A stretch of 64,000 nt of DNA from Bacteroidota bacterium (GTDB lineage Bacteria; Bacteroidota; Ignavibacteria; Kryptoniales; JAKASW01), in contig JAJZVO010000012.1 in the NCBI GenBank assembly GCA_021845665.1, positions 1 through 64,000 on the forward strand, read 5' to 3'. Shown here in pieces: positions 1,253 through 10,842 of this stretch; positions within the stretch are counted from its first letter, which is position 1; each line of letters starts with the position of its first letter. Under the pieces are notes generated by a model. That model had not been told where the DNA came from, ran no database searches, and saw nothing but the letters and a program-made list of their open reading frames with translations. The translations under genes and the position numbers were made by a program.

Positions 1253-3322
1253 CTATTTTCTCCAATGGTCTGTTTTGAATGTCGAAGCCGGAAGTCCCGC
1301 CTTGTTGAAAAGAGTGGCCTCTTCGGCATTCCCCCAGGCATACCTCACTGCCAGCGGATGCTTTACTTGTGAGCTATAGACTTCGAGAGTGGTCCCTTCA
1401 ACTTTAACTTTCGCTTTGACAAAAACACTATCCTTCCCGGCGATGATGAAGTTCGATCTTCCATCAAACGGTTTGAACACCAGACCGCCGTCCGCAAAGT
1501 TGAAAGAGATTATCACTTTCCCGTCACGGACCTTCATCGAGCGATAAAGCGGACCCGAGTACGCCACATGTTTCCCGTATTGTTTTGCCAAAGCCCAGAG
1601 CGCGAGCCGCAGACCCACATCCTGTTTGTCAGGCGGATGAATCCTATCCGGAGTACCAATGTCAAGCGTTACTGCCATACCGGTGTTCGGCAGTGACAGC
1701 GTCTCGCGCTGTGCGTTCCGAATCACCGCCGAGTTTGCACCATTTCCGTAATGATAAGGCGCTATCTGTACCCAATAGAACGGAAAGTTGCCTTCCCCCC
1801 ACGCCGCTCTCCAGTTCTTTATCATGAGCGGGAAGAGATATTTGTAATCGTCGGGTTTATTGGTGTTCGATTCTCCCTGATACCAGACCACACCCCTTAT
1901 GCCATAAGGGATCAGCGGTGCAATCATGCCGTTGTAAAGGACCGTAGGGGTGTTCTCACTGTAGGCAAACGGGAGTTTCGGGCGGAAATATATTTCACCG
2001 TCAGGGCTAAAGACATAGTACTTCCCGCCCAGATATTGAGCGACAGGCATGTATTTCCACTCGCCCGATAGAGGAACTGTGTCAATGGAATCGAATTTCG
2101 GATGGACTTCCATCTTCACTCCATTCCCCCAAATGCCACCCCAGGAGCTTATACGTGGCACCCTGATCGCGATCGTCAAAACCGTATCGCTCACGGCGCT
2201 TCCCGGTACGTTGTACACTCTGGAAGAAGCGTCATAACCTTCCTCCGTTATCCCGCCTACTTTCACCCCGTTAACCCATGTCTCATCCATTCCACCGATC
2301 GGACCGAGGTCCACCACCAGCGAGGAATCAACCCAACTCTTCGGTATATCTACTTTCTTCCTGAACCAGACGGCACCGATGAAACGTCCGTCGCGAACTT
2401 CATAATTGTAGATCCAGTAATTGGGAAGTTTGCACGTACGCCATAGTGAGTCGTTGTAATTTGCTTCCGGGCAGCGGCTATCGTCGAAGTCCAGGCCCTT
2501 CCACCGAACATTTTCTGGTTTCGAGGCTACGTCGAGAACCGGATGAGATGTGATCCATTGCATCCGGGCCGCTATCAATTCTCCCGAGCGCTCAATCGTT
2601 TGGACTTTATCTCTGTATGCTGGCATCTTTGAAAGGTACTTCGCACCGATCCATGGTTGTATTTCCGTACCTCCCCATATTGACCATATCAATCCGATAG
2701 GTACATGCAGCTCATCGTAGAGCTTTCTTCCGAAAAAGTACCCGACGGCACTGAACTCGGCAGCAGTTTTAGGAGTACACTCTATCCATTCTCCCGAGCA
2801 GCTGGAATCCGGAGTAGCAGAGTAGTTCAACGACACGGTAAAGAGCCTGATATTCGGGTACTCCGCTTTCCTGATCTCTTCCGCGGAATTGTTGAGAGGA
2901 AAAAGAGGGGGCCATCCGGCAAGCGGCATCTGCATGTTTGACTGCCCCGAGCAGACCCATACTTCTCCGAGCATAACATTCGTGTACGTAATTGTGGAAT
3001 CGCCCACGGTAATTGTCAAAGAATACGGCCCTCCCGCTTTAACAGTCCTGAGGTGTACTTCCCACGAGCTGTCGGCTCCGGCCACCGTCCTTGATTCTGC
3101 TCCCCAGCTTCCTCTTACAAATACTTCCCTGCCGGGCCCGGTCTTTCCCCAGACCGCCACGTTCGACTTCTGTTGCAGCACCATGTTGTCCGAAAAGAGT
3201 GACGGCATGAGTACAAACCGTGAAGCGGCGGCCTCGGCTTCTGTCACCGACAGAATCAAAAGCGCGGAAAGGAGAACTAATATCGTCTTCACTGCGAAGT
3301 GCAAATGATAATTCTTTTCCAT
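1253..3322 (-). CDS. Secreted sialate O-acetylesterase (SGNH/GDSL family)
   Basis: Predicted to remove O-acetyl groups from sialic acid or other acetylated glycans outside the cytoplasm. From the ATG at 3322 the 689-residue product starts with a signal peptide (MEKNYHLHFAVKTILVLLSA, cleavage near residue 30). The nucleophile block is GEVWVCSGQSNMQM with Ser128. A middle block reads GVVWYQGESN. The acid/base pair sits in DIGTPDRIHPPDK (Asp559, His562). Residues of about 280-420 form a galactose-binding-like beta-sandwich insert (FIGAVWFRKKVDIP, DETWVNGVKVGG), usual for this family. An upstream in-frame start at 3394 would put 24 residues before the signal peptide, so I reject it. Its neighbours are a 250-bp gap and then the ABC operon on the same strand. 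Confidence 0.88.
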   Translation of the reverse strand: MEKNYHLHFAVKTILVLLSALLILSVTEAEAAASRFVLMPSLFSDNMVLQQKSNVAVWGKTGPGREVFVRGSWGAESRTVAGADSSWEVHLRTVKAGGPYSLTITVGDSTITYTNVMLGEVWVCSGQSNMQMPLAGWPPLFPLNNSAEEIRKAEYPNIRLFTVSLNYSATPDSSCSGEWIECTPKTAAEFSAVGYFFGRKLYDELHVPIGLIWSIWGGTEIQPWIGAKYLSKMPAYRDKVQTIERSGELIAARMQWITSHPVLDVASKPENVRWKGLDFDDSRCPEANYNDSLWRTCKLPNYWIYNYEVRDGRFIGAVWFRKKVDIPKSWVDSSLVVDLGPIGGMDETWVNGVKVGGITEEGYDASSRVYNVPGSAVSDTVLTIAIRVPRISSWGGIWGNGVKMEVHPKFDSIDTVPLSGEWKYMPVAQYLGGKYYVFSPDGEIYFRPKLPFAYSENTPTVLYNGMIAPLIPYGIRGVVWYQGESNTNKPDDYKYLFPLMIKNWRAAWGEGNFPFYWVQIAPYHYGNGANSAVIRNAQRETLSLPNTGMAVTLDIGTPDRIHPPDKQDVGLRLALWALAKQYGKHVAYSGPLYRSMKVRDGKVIISFNFADGGLVFKPFDGRSNFIIAGKDSVFVKAKVKVEGTTLEVYSSQVKHPLAVRYAWGNAEEATLFNKAGLPASTFKTDHWRK

Positions 3323-3573
3323 CCGGCTCACATCCATATGTTGTTTAAACTGTTTCGCGCACGACGGCCTGCCCCACCAGTAACTCCGACACAAAATTAG
3401 CCATCCCGATAAGGATTAGCAAACATGACATGGACTGAAAGTGATTTTCGGCAAATTCACGGTCAGCCATCTGCCGCCGCAAGATTTGCCATCAGGTGAA
3501 TCATACTGCGGCAAACAGAGCATCCCGGGAGCTGACTCTTCGCCTCAGAGTGAAAGCCACGTCGAGACTCTCA

Positions 3574-4284
3574 TTACCTCAGCGTACGATCCATGCTTAG
3601 CTGTCCGTCGAGGATATGCAGTATCCGTTTCGTTTCTGACGCAAAGTGTTCATCATGCGTGACGACGACTATTGTTTGTCCCGTTTCACTGTTCAGCTCC
3701 GAAAACAGTTTGTAAATCGTCTCGGCGCTCTTCGAGTCGAGATTGCCTGTCGGTTCATCGGCAAGGAGGACGCCGGGGTTGTTTGCAAGAGCTCTTGCAA
3801 TAGCCACTCTTTGTTGCTGGCCCCCGGAGAGCTGGTTCGGCTTATTACGCAGCTTGTCCGATAAGCCAAGACGTGAAAGGAGTTCGGCGGCACGCGTTCT
3901 AGCGCCGCCCATTGAACACCTCCCCCTGGCAAGCATCGGCATCATTACGTTTTCGAGTGCATTGAATTCCGGCAGGAGGAAATGGAATTGATACACGAAG
4001 CCCAGTTTTCGATTTCTCATCTCCGCGAGATCTTCCTCAGCTAGTGCACTTATTTCCTGACCGTCGAGAATCACACTGCCGGAGGTCGGCCTGTCGAGCC
4101 CGCCCATGAGGTACAACAAAGTGGTCTTGCCGGAGCCGCTCGGCCCCGTTATGGCAGCAAAGTCACCCCGCTTTATCTCGAAACTAATGTCAGGAAGTAT
4201 TACGCTGACAATCTCTTCGCCGCCGCTCTTCATCGCCAGTTCCTTCCTGACGTGTTCGACCCTTATGATCGCTTCATTATTCAT
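3574..4284 (-). CDS. LolD/MacB-type ABC transporter ATP-binding protein
   Basis: Cytoplasmic ATPase of 236 residues that would power the two FtsX-like permeases upstream. Walker A is GPSGSGKTT (residues 48-56), the Q-loop lies in [19 protein letters not shown], the signature is LSGGQQQR (152-159), Walker B is [13 protein letters not shown] and the H-loop is [10 protein letters not shown]. The [18 protein letters not shown] block is typical of LolD-type ATPases. Its start codon overlaps the stop of the preceding permease by four bases (ATGA), so it is translationally coupled as the last gene of the operon. Family knowledge suggests lipoprotein release or MacB-like efflux; which of these cannot be decided from sequence alone. 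Confidence 0.9.
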
Positions 4285-5546
4285 CTTTCACCGCGCAGAA
4301 TTTCCACTGGGTTTACTTTTGCGGCGTTTCGCGACGGTCCCACGGCAGCCACCAGGCTGACTAAGACCGCAAACAGCGAAGCCAGGACGAAATACATGGG
4401 GCTCTTCCCCATCATAAGATGGTTCGAGCTCACGAAACTTTGACTCGACGAAGCCATCGGAATGGACGACATGATCTCAATGAGTATGAACCCCAGCAGG
4501 CATCCGATCGCCGCCCCGACCAGCGCGACTATCAGTCCCTGCGCCATGTATATGAGAGTAATCTCGCCTCTTTTGAATCCAAGTGATTTGAGGATTGCGA
4601 TATCCCTCGCTTTCTCCAGAACGTTAGTGATCAGGACATTGGCCACACCGAAGCCCGCAACCATTATGACAAAGAAGACAAGGAAGTAAACAATTCCTGA
4701 GATCATTTTGAACAACGCAACCACGCTGGCGGCTTTCTGTTCCCATGTTATCGCTTTGTAGTTTGTTTCCCGTTCGATCATCTTCGCGACTGTGCCGTCC
4801 TTCGGCAAATTATTTACACGGATGTACAGATCGCTCGCTTCGTCAGGTGGAAATCCCCCGATGATTTGTCCGAGTCGCATGTTAACGTAGCAGTTATCGT
4901 CGATGTCGTTGATACCGGTCCTGAATATTCCGACTACCCTGACGCTGTATATATCGCCCGATTGTGAGACTATTCGCATCCTGTCGCCTGCCCGAGCTGT
5001 GAAGTCCTTCGCGACGGACGTGCCGAGTATGATGCCGTCCGGAGTCCTGCCGAGTTCATCGAAACTTCCGCTCACCATGCTTCTGGAAAATTTCTCTATT
5101 TCGTTCTCCGTGGATGGAACGATGCCGAACAATTGGACCGGCTGCGAAATCGTTCCGAACATTCCGATGACGTCCATCGACACCAGCGGTGTCACCAGTT
5201 CGACGAGGGAATCGTTTCTGATAAGGCTTTCCACTCTCGGGTAATTTTTAATCACATCCTGCCTCTCTCGGCTGACATCTTTGACGAAGTCGACGTAGTT
5301 CCCGTCGCCCGAGACAACGAGCTGATCGGGAACCGGCTGCTTCACTCGTTCCCCTGAGACTATGACGTGCGGAGCTATACCCACTATCTTCTGAATGAAA
5401 CTCTGGAGGAGACCATCCATAAGTGAAACGGCCGTGATCAGGACCATTACGCCGACGCTGATACCGAGGAGCGTCAGGAGAGTTTGGCGCTTCCTGTTCT
5501 GGAGCTGCCTGTAGGCGATAGTCGCAAGGTGATAGTTGATTCTCAT
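4281..5546 (-). CDS. FtsX-like ABC permease (LolC/E-MacB type), second copy
   Basis: Inner-membrane permease of 421 residues. An N-terminal membrane segment follows [19 protein letters not shown] large periplasmic MacB-PCD domain (about residues 50-260) comes next. The C-terminal FtsX domain has three membrane segments (around [40 protein letters not shown] and [18 protein letters not shown]). It ends [18 protein letters not shown], the usual coupling/tail motif. It lies two bases downstream of a paralogous permease and overlaps the ATPase by four bases. Two different permeases with one ATPase resemble the LolC-LolE-LolD arrangement. Confidence 0.88.
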
Positions 5547-5548
5547 GA

Positions 5549-6820
5549 TCAGGCTCTGAGGATATCAACCGGCTTGAGGCGTGCCGCGCGGCGAGCCGGT
5601 CCGAATGCCGATATCGCACTGACGACGATTGCAAACAGCGATGTTACAATGAAATATACCGGCTTCTGGACTGTAACTATGTGGTTTCCCCTGACCACGG
5701 CGCTGGGCCCGTATGAGATCGGAAGTGCAGAAATGAGACTTGTAAGATAATGCCCCGCCGCGCAGCCGAGGAGCGCACCGGTAATCCCCAGCAACATTCC
5801 CTCTGCGAGAAAAACCATTTCGAGAGACCTTATGCCGACCCCGATCGACTTCAGCACGGCAATGTCCCTCTGCTTCTGAAGGACAATAGTGATCAGGACG
5901 TTCGCGATCCCGAAGCCCGCAACGACGAACACGAAGATTACAAGGAAGAATGTGATGTTGTTGTTCCTCTGGAAAAGAGAAAGTAGGTTCGCGTTCGCTT
6001 CCTCCCATGTCTGCGTTTTGTAACCTGTGAGTCGGCTGATCTCAACGGAGAGGCGGTTGACTATCGTCGGCGAAGTGGTATGTATTCCGACGGCTGAGAC
6101 CGCGTTTTGAGGCAGGCCGTTTATGATCTGGGCAAGGCGAAGATTGACAAAAGCATCGTTGTCGTCCACGGTCCCAAACCCGCTGGCAAACGTGCCGACG
6201 ACCAGCAGATCATAAACTTTTCCGTTCTCACCGGTGAATCTGACGAGATCGTGATAACCGGTTCTTAATTTCCGCGCCAGACCATCGCCAAGCAGAATAC
6301 CGTTTTTTGTATATGCCAGCTCGCTGAGGCTTCCCGAAACCACGTTCTGCTTCAGCTTTCCAATCAGCGCTTCCCTATCCGGGATGACACCTTTCACGAA
6401 ACAAGGCCGTGTCAGCGTTGAATAACGGAGCACGCCGCGGGTAGCTACAAAAGGGGAGACAGCATCTATTCCAGCAAGCTTCTCCACAAGTGAAACAACT
6501 TCAGTGTAAGGTTTGACCTCTTTCCTATCATCGGGAATTATCCTCGAGACGATTTCGTAATGGTCAGACGAAGCAGTTGAGGACCCGAATAGGAGTCTCT
6601 GCTTTTCATGTACCTTCTCACCCTTGATGGTTATGAGCGGGGAGATATCGATAATTTTCTCTTCGATCTCCGTCATAATCCCTTCGGCAAGACCGAAAGT
6701 AAGAATCATAACCATGGAACCTACTGCAACGCCAGCAATGACCAGCCCGGTCTGGCGCTTCTTCCCCGTTAAATGCCTGAAAGCGATTTCAAATATGAAC
6801 CTGATTTTGTCCAGCATCAA
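5549..6820 (-). CDS. FtsX-like ABC permease (LolC/E-MacB type), first copy
   Basis: Paralogue of the next gene, 423 residues and the same architecture: membrane segment after FRHLTGKKRQTGLVIAGVAV, periplasmic domain of about 200 residues, then FtsX segments (FFLVIFVFVVAGFGIANVLI, MVFLAEGMLLGITGALLGCA, YFIVTSLFAIVVSAISAFGP) and the ending PARRAARLKPVDILRA. Both permeases carry the ANVLI...[12 protein letters not shown] or ...QRDIAVLKSIG cytoplasmic loop thought to contact the ATPase. The start overlaps the adaptor gene stop by four bases. I infer a heterodimeric channel with the second copy. Confidence 0.88.
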   Translation of the reverse strand: MMLDKIRFIFEIAFRHLTGKKRQTGLVIAGVAVGSMVMILTFGLAEGIMTEIEEKIIDISPLITIKGEKVHEKQRLLFGSSTASSDHYEIVSRIIPDDRKEVKPYTEVVSLVEKLAGIDAVSPFVATRGVLRYSTLTRPCFVKGVIPDREALIGKLKQNVVSGSLSELAYTKNGILLGDGLARKLRTGYHDLVRFTGENGKVYDLLVVGTFASGFGTVDDNDAFVNLRLAQIINGLPQNAVSAVGIHTTSPTIVNRLSVEISRLTGYKTQTWEEANANLLSLFQRNNNITFFLVIFVFVVAGFGIANVLITIVLQKQRDIAVLKSIGVGIRSLEMVFLAEGMLLGITGALLGCAAGHYLTSLISALPISYGPSAVVRGNHIVTVQKPVYFIVTSLFAIVVSAISAFGPARRAARLKPVDILRA

Positions 6821-7875
6821 TTCGCCGCTTCCACGCGCATGCCATTCCTGATGTCTGAGCCAGGCTCCGATACAATCTCCAATCCAGGACGAAGATTACC
6901 GCCCAGAATTTCTGAAAACTTGCCATCTGTCGCCCCCAGGTCGACTCTCATTGCCCTCACTATTCCCCCCTCAACCGCGTAGATCAAGTTCGATTCCGGC
7001 AATTGCATCACGGCCGTCCGCGGCACTAGAAGCACATCGTGAAGTTCGGCGGCTACTATATTCACAGTCGCGGTCATTCCAACATTGAGATTAGACGGCG
7101 GGTCCGTCAACTTGATAAACACTTTGGAAGTCTTCGTCGACTCGTTAGTCTTCGGTACGATCCTGTAGACGAACCCATCGAACCTGCGGTCGCTGAATGC
7201 ATCGAAGGCAACGACGCACTTTTCCCCATTTTTCACATTCGCGAAGTCCTGCTCGTCAACCTCGGCCTCCACGAGTATCGATCTCGGTGCTATCATCTGG
7301 AAGCACACTGCGTCAGGCAAAAGATAATCGCCGAGCTTCGCGCCCGAAAAGATAATGACGCCGGAAAAAGGCGCCGTCACTCTCGTCTTCGATAATTCTT
7401 CTTCCGATATCTTCAGGGCAATTTTGCTCTGCTGGAGCGAGATCTCTGCAAGGTCCGACTGCGTCTTCGCGTCATCGAGCTGCTTTCTGGTCACACTTCT
7501 ACTCTCGTATAGAGTCTCCATACGTTTCAGATTCTCGAGCTTATCCTGCAGATCGACCTGCGCAGAACGAAGGTCGGTCTTTGCCTGTTCCACTCTGAGC
7601 ATGTCGTCGCTGTCGTCGGTCTTAAGGAGCATTTGTCCGCGTTTCACGCTCATCCCCTCATGGGTTCCGATATAGGTTACAATTCCACCTGACTCTGACC
7701 GCAATGTAGCGGTTGAATCCGCTGTAACGTTTCCTGTGGCGTATATAACCTTCAGGAGGTTGCCTCGCTGAACCGTGGTCACGCCGACCTTTGGGTGGAC
7801 AAACAACGACCGATAGAGCACGAAGGCAATGAGTACACCCACCAGGGATCCAAATACGATGACTTTCTTTTTCAT
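6817..7875 (-). CDS. HlyD/MacA-like periplasmic adaptor (membrane fusion protein)
   Basis: Adaptor of 352 residues anchored by an N-terminal membrane helix (VIVFGSLVGVLIAFVLYRSL). It has a lipoyl half-motif (GIVTYIGTHEGMSVKRGQML) followed by a coiled-coil hairpin (about residues 90-155, rich in E/K/L/Q). The second lipoyl half is TRVTAPFSGVIIFSGAKLGD, and beta-barrel and membrane-proximal domains end the protein. The partner is the FtsX/ATPase complex encoded directly downstream. It overlaps the TetR gene stop by four bases, so regulator and transporter form one transcript. A MacA-type role in tripartite export is more likely than pure lipoprotein sorting, because LolCDE operons normally lack an adaptor. 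Confidence 0.88.
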   Translation of the reverse strand: MKKKVIVFGSLVGVLIAFVLYRSLFVHPKVGVTTVQRGNLLKVIYATGNVTADSTATLRSESGGIVTYIGTHEGMSVKRGQMLLKTDDSDDMLRVEQAKTDLRSAQVDLQDKLENLKRMETLYESRSVTRKQLDDAKTQSDLAEISLQQSKIALKISEEELSKTRVTAPFSGVIIFSGAKLGDYLLPDAVCFQMIAPRSILVEAEVDEQDFANVKNGEKCVVAFDAFSDRRFDGFVYRIVPKTNESTKTSKVFIKLTDPPSNLNVGMTATVNIVAAELHDVLLVPRTAVMQLPESNLIYAVEGGIVRAMRVDLGATDGKFSEILGGNLRPGLEIVSEPGSDIRNGMRVEAAN

Positions 7876-8489
7876 TTCTTTCCCTCTCTTGACCCGATCC
7901 CGTCGAAGAACACGGTGACGAGAAAATCCACCGCTTCATTCTTCATTCTTTCATCGTGCTCGTGGAACAAGTTGTTCATGTGGTAAGCATAAACCATATG
8001 ATTAAATACCTGGGCGGCACGAAGAGTATCTATCCTTCTTACCTGCCTGAGCTTTATTCCGCGGTCCAATTCGGCAGCCAGTATTTCGTTCAGTTTCTCG
8101 TGAATGAGCGCATGAGGGCTTCCCTTCCAGCCGGCCATATTTACCCGCCCCATCTCCCTCATCAGAAGACGGAAGAAGTCCGCGTGGTCTGAAAAATGCG
8201 TTATCAGCCTCCGGACAAACAAACCGAACTTCTCCCTCACCGGAAGATTCTCATGCATCGCTCCTTCGGCGATTTCATTGATCTCGACGAACACATCCTC
8301 AACGACGCTCATGTAGAGCTCTTCTTTCGTTCTGAAGAATTTATACAGCGTCGCTTTCGCAAATTCGGACTTTGCGGCCACGCTATCGATCGTGGTACCG
8401 TTGTACCCGTTCTCGGAGAACACCTCCCTGGCGGCATCTACGATCGCCTTCCGGCGAAACTCCATTTCCCGTTCTTTTCTCGATGTCAT
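7872..8489 (-). CDS. TetR-family transcriptional repressor of the export operon
   Basis: Repressor of 205 residues from the ATG at 8489. The N-terminal DNA-binding part is canonical: RKAIVDAAREVFSENGYNGT then TIDSVAAKSEFAKATLYKFF and RTKEELYMSVVED. The C-terminal ligand domain (residues 70-205) is helical and not assignable to a ligand. An in-frame start 129 bases further upstream exists, but the promoter and operator at 8511-8555 fall inside that extension, so the shorter product is preferred. It is the first gene of the operon and overlaps the adaptor by four bases, the usual autoregulated layout for a TetR repressor controlling an efflux system. Confidence 0.88.
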   Translation of the reverse strand: MTSRKEREMEFRRKAIVDAAREVFSENGYNGTTIDSVAAKSEFAKATLYKFFRTKEELYMSVVEDVFVEINEIAEGAMHENLPVREKFGLFVRRLITHFSDHADFFRLLMREMGRVNMAGWKGSPHALIHEKLNEILAAELDRGIKLRQVRRIDTLRAAQVFNHMVYAYHMNNLFHEHDERMKNEAVDFLVTVFFDGIGSREGKK

Positions 8490-8510
8490 AATACCAGCCG
8501 TTCTATTGCG

Positions 8511-8555
8511 TGAACTCACTGGTTCAAATTTACCACCGACCGGTTCGCATGTCAA
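8511..8555 (-). promoter_or_regulatory. Promoter and TetR operator of the export operon
   Basis: On the minus strand TTGACA (8550-8555) and TAAATTTG (8525-8532) are separated by 17 bases between hexamers. This fits both a sigma70-like -35 and the Bacteroidota pattern TTG-N20-TAnnTTTG. Overlapping the end of the -7 box is an imperfect palindrome, TGAACTCACTGGTTCA (8511-8526), whose TGAAC/GTTCA arms flank six bases. Repressor bound there would block polymerase. The predicted transcript starts about 20-30 bases before the TetR start codon at 8489. Confidence 0.7.
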
Positions 8556-9124
8556 GTCAGGATATAGAATATTTCGGGACGTCATGATCCCGTTCGCCGG
8601 CAGGATTATTTGCAGCACTGGCCCATCCGCGCAGATTTGCGGGAACCCGGTAATTGACTAACGCATGTTACGACGCTCCACACGCGCCCCAGGAAATCGT
8701 TAAAGCAAACACGCGAGAGATTCTTCGCAGATATATGAGTAATTCGATTTGCCCTGACGCCGGATCGGGTCCACCGCGTGTATTTGTCGCCCGCACCTTG
8801 ATGGAATAAATTCTTCCGCAGGAGGATGTCCCCAATTTGGCAACGATTGAAATCGACGGCTATTAAAATACGTCCCGATAAGCTGGACCCAGCTTATCGG
8901 GATGCGCTGTTGTCAGCAGCCCGATTCATCGGATGGCCGTGCTTGGGACGGCCTCCAGAAAGCCAACATTAACGACAGGCACTGTGATCGACACAAACGG
9001 ACAGATCGTCCTCACTTTGAATCCGGATCACCAAAGAGGCCCCGTCCGGAACCTCGTTTCCCCGGAACCCCATCGAAAGGCTCCCTTCGAAATGCAGCAA
9101 AGCCGTATCCGCAAAGAGTATCTT
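8556..9124. other. Intergenic stretch upstream of TetR and downstream of chitinase
   Basis: About 570 bases with no supportable gene. It holds the 14-bp perfect palindrome listed separately. Open frames on the plus strand here run into the antisense of the chitinase gene and show no protein-family signal. Confidence 0.4.
8873..8902. repeat. Perfect 14-bp inverted repeat
   Basis: TCCCGATAAGCTGG (8873-8886) and its exact complement CCAGCTTATCGGGA (8889-8902) are separated by only two bases. There is no T-run on either side, so it is a poor intrinsic terminator. It lies about 220 bases past the chitinase stop. It may be a dispersed palindromic repeat or a protein-binding site. Confidence 0.7.
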
Positions 9125-10261
9125 TCATCTCAATTCATCATACAGAGTCCGCAGGAGCGTCGATCCGTAGTCCGAGCTGAGGGACCAGAACATGACTCCT
9201 CCGAGGCCGCGGGCTTTGATGTATTCACATTTGTCGCGCAGCGACTGTGGATCGTCGTACGAAATAAAGACACTGTCAGCCCTATTGAAAAGATAAGGGA
9301 CACAAGAAGTGGAGTCCCAATAACGGACAAAGCCGTTCTTGTTTATATAGTTCTCGACGAGATTAGCGTAAGTCGCGTTGATCGGCGGTACTGTCGGCCG
9401 GCCGGGTTCGTAGAGACCGTTGAAGGCGGTCGAGTCGACGTGCCATGCATGTCCGTAGAACGGAACGCCGAGCACTAACTTCGACGGCGGCACGCCCGCG
9501 GCTTCGAATTCCTCGACAGCTTTGTCGTCAGAGCTCGGATGCGCATCTCGTGGATTTGTGAAGAGTGGTGCGTTGTTCCCCGCAAGCGAGTCGCCCCCGG
9601 GGACGCTCATGTCGTACGTCATGAGGTTTATGAAATCAAGATATTTTGAATCTTCCGACATGTCTGTATGCTTAAGGTAATCCCCGAAAGCGCCGGCAGC
9701 TATAGTAACGAGATAATGCTTGCCGGTCTTCATCCCGAGGTCATCGAGTGCCACACGCAGTCCTGCAAGAAGGGCCGTGAAATTTTGTCTGTCTTCGGGA
9801 CAATGCGGATTACCGGCTCCCGGCAATCCTGGATATTCCCAATCGATGTCGATACCGTCCAGATTGTTCTTTTGAATGAACCTGACCGCACTCTCGATGA
9901 ACTTTGCCCTTGTTTCGCCGGTCAGGCACATATTCGAGAATCCCCGAGACCATTCCCAGCCGCCTACTGAAATGAGAATCTTAAGATTCGGGTACTTTCG
10001 TTTGGCCTCGTTGAGTACCCTGAAATTCTCCGTATCGTTCCTGAAACCTTCTACGATTGTGTCCCCCTTGATATTCGCGAATGCGTACAATAGATCCGTC
10101 ACCATTCCCAGGTGCAGCGAATCTGGATTAACGATACTATCTCCTTCGAACAGATAGCCTACAACACGTTTCCTGGTTTCAGCTTTCTTTTCCAGTTCAG
10201 GTGTACTCGCGCACGAAGCGAGAATTAGCCCCAGCAGGGCCACAGCGATAGCGATCCGCAT
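9125..10261 (-). CDS. GH18 chitinase-like lipoprotein
   Basis: Glycoside hydrolase family 18 enzyme predicted to cut beta-1,4-GlcNAc chains at the cell surface. The 378-residue product starts at the ATG at 10261, preceded by GGAG. The signal reads MRIAIAVALLGLILASCAST with the lipobox cysteine at residue 17. The SxGG strand motif is ILISVGGWEW (Ser98). The catalytic motif is DGIDIDWE with acid Glu142. The later barrel motif is FINLMTYDM, and MFWSLSSDYG lies near the C-terminus, all in family order. An upstream in-frame start at 10381 adds 40 residues before the signal and is rejected. NagA (30852-32060) could process the resulting GlcNAc-6-phosphate. Confidence 0.92.
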   Translation of the reverse strand: MRIAIAVALLGLILASCASTPELEKKAETRKRVVGYLFEGDSIVNPDSLHLGMVTDLLYAFANIKGDTIVEGFRNDTENFRVLNEAKRKYPNLKILISVGGWEWSRGFSNMCLTGETRAKFIESAVRFIQKNNLDGIDIDWEYPGLPGAGNPHCPEDRQNFTALLAGLRVALDDLGMKTGKHYLVTIAAGAFGDYLKHTDMSEDSKYLDFINLMTYDMSVPGGDSLAGNNAPLFTNPRDAHPSSDDKAVEEFEAAGVPPSKLVLGVPFYGHAWHVDSTAFNGLYEPGRPTVPPINATYANLVENYINKNGFVRYWDSTSCVPYLFNRADSVFISYDDPQSLRDKCEYIKARGLGGVMFWSLSSDYGSTLLRTLYDELR

Positions 10262-10842
10262 GTCAACTCCATTTTGAATTCTCAATCGAGAACAATCTAT
10301 CATGCAAGCGGCGCTTTCACAAGAAAGTCTATCTGGAGACAAAAGAAAGCGGAGGACTGAAGAGCGACAACCCCTTGTCACTCCGTCCTCCGCGTATATG
10401 GCTTTATGATATTATGCTTAGGGAGAAGCACTCTTAGCCAAAAAGTCTCGACTGTATGTCAATTGACCCTGGGGATCATAAAGGCTCTCACTCTTCGAAC
10501 GAACCTTATGCCGCTCCCGGGTCATTACTTATTTTTATGTATTACTACCTTCAACAGCCATGCCGATTTCCACATGGGCCTGTTTCACCGGATATTCCGG
10601 CTTCTGACGAATCTACTCACCCCCAAACGGTGCCACATTCGTGCCCATTGATTCGCGTGGGAATACGTAACGAGTTGAGGCGGCAACAGTTGGAATCGAC
10701 TCATTGATGTGGCTACTTGCAGAAGCGTGGCACCCCTCTTCGCATCAACCTATCATAAGCACATTCGGAACCACAGAAGCAAGCATGGCCCACTATCGAC
10801 AATGGTTGGACTATCGAGCTCTTCGCGCGCCACACATTGCCT
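10262..10842. other. Intergenic stretch between TonB receptor and chitinase
   Basis: About 580 bases without a convincing gene. A 9-bp inverted repeat, GCGGAGGAC (10349-10357) and GTCCTCCGC (10385-10393) with a 27-base spacer, lies upstream of the chitinase start. It may be a weak hairpin. Short plus-strand frames here lack any family signal. Confidence 0.4.

Follow-up and report, generated by a model that had tools for sequence, protein, structure and literature searches.

The export operon headed by a TetR-family gene in the window (the whole stretch of DNA analyzed, 64,000 nucleotides) is very probably under ordinary autorepression by that TetR, acting through a putative operator, O1, and presumably released by a ligand. 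A 16-base palindrome overlaps the promoter of the regulator's own gene and is conserved with it, and the sequence evidence, as far as it reaches, favors autorepression. The site is of the ordinary TetR autorepression kind and the mechanism is textbook. The analysis provides a footprint-supported operator and promoter for a lineage whose orthologous loci here are all metagenome assemblies, and predicts that the export operon is regulated by the gene that heads it.

The TetR-led export operon

A promoter just upstream of a TetR-led export operon had been proposed in the original prediction, and tetR indeed headed five genes of ABC-export type:

7872..8489, minus strand: TetR-family regulator gene, 205 aa, ATG at 8489 (PF00440 TetR_N, E 1.9e-14)
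6817..7875, minus strand: periplasmic adaptor, HlyD/RND_mfp-like (TIGR01730, 209.3 bits, cut-off 94.9; PF16576), sharing 4 bases with the 3' end of tetR
5549..6820, minus strand: MacB/LolCE-like FtsX permease 1 (PF02687 and PF12704)
4281..5546, minus strand: MacB/LolCE-like FtsX permease 2 (PF02687 and PF12704)
3574..4284, minus strand: LolD/MacB-type ABC ATPase (PF00005; TIGR02211, 273.4 bits, below the cut-off of 307.75)

Gene junctions after tetR consisted of 4-base overlaps plus one two-base gap. Scores for LolCDE membership stayed under the cut-offs for the two permeases (152.7 and 173.1 bits vs 362.45) as for the ATPase (values above). TetR orthologues (at least 69% identity) were present in 8 of the 13 genomes of the genus, including the window's own, with two copies in G005, and the next match in the genus was only 33% identical. 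The same four transporter genes stood behind tetR in seven of the eight orthologous loci, the contig of the remaining one (L059) ending within the adaptor gene. The tetR gene and the transporter permease co-occurred in the same 8 of 13 genomes (G009 was matched through the second of its permeases, which stands at the end of a contig), while the other five harbored neither at these thresholds. The metagenome-assembled genome (MAG) YP1.bin85 (L057, L061) carried two diverged tetR-transporter operons, their TetR proteins 85% and 69-70% identical to that of the window, which points either to a genuine paralogue or to a bin of mixed origin.

A GH18 gene lay upstream in the same orientation, ending at 9125, and the strongest of the three terminator-like sites of the stretch (0.8 expected) separated it from the tetR operon:

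8873..8902, minus strand: terminator-like hairpin of 13 pairs with a T-rich tail, between the GH18 gene and the tetR promoter

On the 3' side of the operon, 3200-3700 contained no terminator-like site, and an Rfam search of 3000-10500 returned 0 matches.

The TetR_N helix-turn-helix was recognized at 53.6 bits (PF00440, cut-off 24). AlphaFold2 modeled the protein with nine helices (mean pLDDT 85.1 in the best of five models, 82.8 to 52.9 in the others), predicting an all-helical TetR fold with a C-terminal ligand-binding domain, and the best listed structure matches were of TetR type. The protein did not belong to the FadR family as defined by NCBIfam NF053878 (40.3 bits, cut-off 200).

The predicted start at 8489 was supported: the ATG was aligned in six of the eight other loci, and the remaining two started one codon later (ATG, G005) or with TTG (G005b). 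In G003 and G004 the open frame reached only some six codons further upstream, for totals of 211 and 209 aa, respectively, so a much longer TetR is excluded there. The longest mechanical ORF in the window (7872-8618, GTG at 8618, 248 aa) would cross both promoter and operator.

Promoter and putative operator upstream of tetR

Four elements were located between the start codon and the hairpin:

8550..8555, minus strand: -35/-33 element TTGACA, its TTG kept in 9/9 loci
8535..8544, minus strand: putative weaker operator O2, core ACC-GGTC-GGT, centered 21 bp upstream of the O1 center
8525..8532, minus strand: -7/-10 element TAAATTTG, 17 bases after TTGACA
8511..8526, minus strand: putative operator O1, TGAACCAGTGAGTTCA, delineated by a nine-locus footprint, a dyad test and a leave-one-out position weight matrix (PWM)

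The pair formed by TTGACA and TAAATTTG was confirmed in letters, coordinates, strand (minus) and spacer (17). Bacteroidota-type promoters have a spacing of about 20 bases between the -33 TTG and the -7 TAnnTTTG, and 20 bases separated TTG from TA in the window. TAnnTTTG is given as the Bacteroidetes promoter box in PMC6414381. A sigma-70-type scan also picked up the tetR promoter (10/12, spacer 17), as the one site in 900 bases, with 0.9 expected from shuffles. In a sample of 464 kb of the own genome (166 regions upstream of ATG-started ORFs of at least 150 aa), TTG-N19-21-TAnnTT was over-represented 5' of genes (22 sense vs 7 antisense, against 4.2 on average and 10 at most in 20 Markov sequence sets), while the exact box TAnnTTTG alone displayed no enrichment in these 166 regions (6 vs 4.85). 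The exact box was retained in 4/9 orthologous promoters, and TTG was offset by one base relative to O1 in G010 and G001. The promoter in the window itself fits the Bacteroidota type. From the position of the -7 box, the transcript would start near 8519-8521.

O1 is 16 bases long, with perfect 5-bp arms (TGAAC/GTTCA), a 6-bp middle and a non-complementary sixth pair, and 21 bases lie between it and the ATG at 8489. The palindrome had been described as lying across the -7 end; the overlap exists but amounts to two bases only, O1 being placed mostly over the presumed transcript start. Its exact form, TGAACYNNNNRGTTCA, had a single occurrence in the 4.64 Mb genome, against 0 for the reversed-pattern control. 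Inverted repeats of this geometry (5-bp arms around a 6-bp spacer) numbered 69 in the window, and the O1 palindrome by itself is no more than chance; its credibility comes from the footprint, taken across nine loci within one genus, not from the palindrome alone.

Conservation of O1 across nine loci

The footprint compared the locus of the window with eight orthologous loci of the same genus (TetR protein identity 70-95%), seven from Bacteroidetes MAGs and one from a Candidatus Kryptoniota MAG. The nine sequences are not independent, all belonging to one genus and two to one MAG, and those of the window and G012 were alike further upstream. Absence of the palindrome from orthologues had been set beforehand as the refuting test, and no such absence was seen: the exact TGAACYNNNNRGTTCA was found before tetR in 6/9 loci, and a degenerate form keeping AC and GTTCA in the other 3/9. 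These letters of the O1 dyad, AC (-5, -4) and GTTCA (+4 to +8), were invariant in 9/9 loci, whereas upstream of the promoter, across the 31 columns between -68 and -38, no position was invariant. Beyond about -37 from the O1 center the sequences were mostly unlike, except for the closest pair (window and G012); promoter and O1 formed one conserved block in MAFFT alignments, which were not anchored on the motif. The distance from O1 to codon 1 was 21 bases in 8/9 loci and 20 in the ninth.

The family consensus of O1, TGAACT-N4-AGTTCA, was matched at 12/12 positions in three loci, 11/12 in four and 9/12 in two; O1 was considered degraded in three loci (9/12 in G005 and G005b, 11/12 in G010). At the O1 center, 44/54 cells were complementary, ranking first of 97 even centers, in a dyad test whose anchoring on the motif favors this center, the unanchored MAFFT alignments giving the same block. 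Runner-up centers reached 29/54 cells, and 0/5000 column shuffles reached 44 cells at any center. In the leave-one-out PWM, O1 scored 13.4 to 23.0, whereas no other position in these upstream regions exceeded 6.6. The left half of O1 is partly common to the TTTG of the promoter. Promoter constraint fails to explain the conservation of GTTCA, which is situated downstream of the boxes.

Further downstream, the leader TAGAAYGGNTGGTAAT before the start codon (8490-8505 in the window) was partly conserved as well, with eight columns at 7-9/9, and was poorly explained by an RNA stem or by a third operator. Such an operator at +21 was rejected, its dyad ranking just 25 of 97 centers.

A putative second site between the boxes

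O2 was absent from the earlier sequence-only reading of the promoter. Its core was ACT-N4-RGT in several orthologues; the ACC-GGTC-GGT form was restricted to the window among the nine loci, the rest displaying ACT-N4-RGT or less. The O2 center reached 29/54 dyad cells, equal to center +11 as runner-up, and was the sole other offset of 96 with a mean O1 PWM score above -4 (-1.72 vs 20.40 for O1), in a stretch that is also under promoter constraint and in related sequences. In G010, O2 was displaced by one base along with TTG. A role of O2 as a second TetR site is suggestive only.

The own genome harbored another TetR-led cluster, on contig C72, composed of a TetR, a 288-aa protein (by eye like outer-membrane lipoprotein-sorting proteins) and an FtsX-type permease. 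A perfect palindrome, AAACCGACCGGTCGGTTT, was located directly before its start (C72:38295-38312; L041:2296-2313), with a 10-base core in common with the O2 of the window. One could tentatively imagine two phased TetR sites, O1 and O2, holding two dimers on one DNA face and enclosing the core promoter, the O2 of the window having drifted to the core of the other TetR's operator (ACCGACCGGTCGGT type, contig C72) and allowing possible cross-talk; this extended scheme has perhaps one chance in a few of being right.

O1-like sites in the genome and the genus

The exact palindrome was found at 16 places in the 13 genomes of the genus, compared to 8 for the reversed control, and six of the 16 were tetR promoters. 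The ten places outside tetR promoters were thus near chance level (control 8); eight of them were scored within ORFs and two were intergenic, and those of L217, L219 and L225, at most 101 bases from a predicted ORF start, each occurred in one genome only. Few exact sites outside tetR promoters are as expected for a local repressor. Allowing one mismatch yielded 32 places in the own genome vs 16 in the control, and of 15 examined, 13 were assigned to an ORF and 2 to intergenic DNA. ORF scoring was rough, since the site of the window itself counts as inside through the long GTG-started frame. A looser pattern gave 417 rows in the 13 genomes vs 306 in the control, and the five genomes lacking this tetR likewise showed an excess. 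There is no clear sign of a wider regulon, and a small one is possible given the one-mismatch excess.

Alternative explanations

The true operator could instead be ACCGACCGGT, between the boxes at 8535-8544, with O1 as a secondary or chance palindrome. This site is perfect in the window, AAACCGACCGGTCGGTTT stands just before the start of the other TetR-led cluster of the own genome, and sites of ACCGACCGGT type gave 15 rows genome-wide (two being one palindrome) vs 6 in the control. However, its ACC-GGTC-GGT letters were confined to the window among the nine loci, the O2 PWM score was far under that of O1 in 9/9 loci, and the best-conserved dyad was O1. O2 was consequently rejected as main operator, its letters being unconserved across the nine loci, and we consider this arrangement improbable. 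Hardly more credible is a binding of the O1 dyad by another regulator of the genus rather than by the adjacent TetR. The own genome held 5 matches to the window TetR (itself included), which leaves paralogues as candidates, and one-mismatch O1 sites were twofold over control there; yet exact sites elsewhere in the genus were near chance, and of the five genomes lacking tetR and transporter four had no exact site, the three of G002 all being within predicted ORFs.

A conservation of GTTCA as part of a leader RNA hairpin (GUUC with GAAC at +16 to +19), and not of a DNA operator, appeared the least probable of all. The predicted leader fold does pair GUUC with GAAC (-7.6 kcal/mol), positions +15 to +26 were also partly conserved in the nine loci, and 80.3% of the cells were paired vs 22 to 63% in slid controls. 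Nevertheless, leader folding was no better than in shuffles (z -0.43), and such a hairpin would leave the conservation of the left half of O1 unexplained. The hairpin was rejected on the pairing test: no pair was altered on both sides, and pairing was level with that of control (a) (81.4%).

Proposed regulation and known systems

Autorepression through O1 would proceed as follows. The minus-strand promoter at 8555-8525 would drive tetR, the adaptor, the two FtsX/MacB-type permeases and the LolD-type ATPase. A TetR dimer on O1 (8511-8526) would overlap the -7 box at its downstream edge and lie over the presumed transcription start; RNA polymerase would thereby be kept off, and TetR would limit its own operon. 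A ligand, probably the pump substrate, would free the operon from TetR, and the weaker O2, two helical turns upstream, may accept a second dimer. We infer that O1 is bound by this TetR, that binding represses and does not activate, that the five genes form one transcript, and that a ligand is involved. According to PMC3511530, the TetR-family regulators studied are mostly repressors, many of them of efflux genes.

Among the literature matches listed for TetR operators of similar type or from this group, none dealt with the TetR of this lineage. The best listed fold matches to the TetR model (6azh, 3whb, 3vpr) were FadR-/PfmR-type TetR proteins from Bacillus, Clostridium and Thermus, with about 20-25% identity to the window TetR and a TM-score of 0.62-0.70 to the query; by way of the model, they give a weak hint of a hydrophobic ligand.

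The closest operators considered, alike in half-site or geometry, are those of TetR-family regulators of Corynebacterium glutamicum. The BioQ operator contains the TGAAC half-site of O1 (PMC9210681), with a different spacer. McbR, reported to bind TAGAC-N6-GTCTA (PMC9210681), has the 5-bp arms and N6 of O1, with different letters. REP1 of RolR, a TetR-family member (TGAAC-N4-GTTCA in the same article), has the half-sites of O1, TGAAC and GTTCA, whereas its spacer is N4 vs N6 and the second repeat of RolR has other letters. That second repeat lies near REP1 and a pair of dimers is bound, an arrangement to which O2, as putative second site, may be compared.
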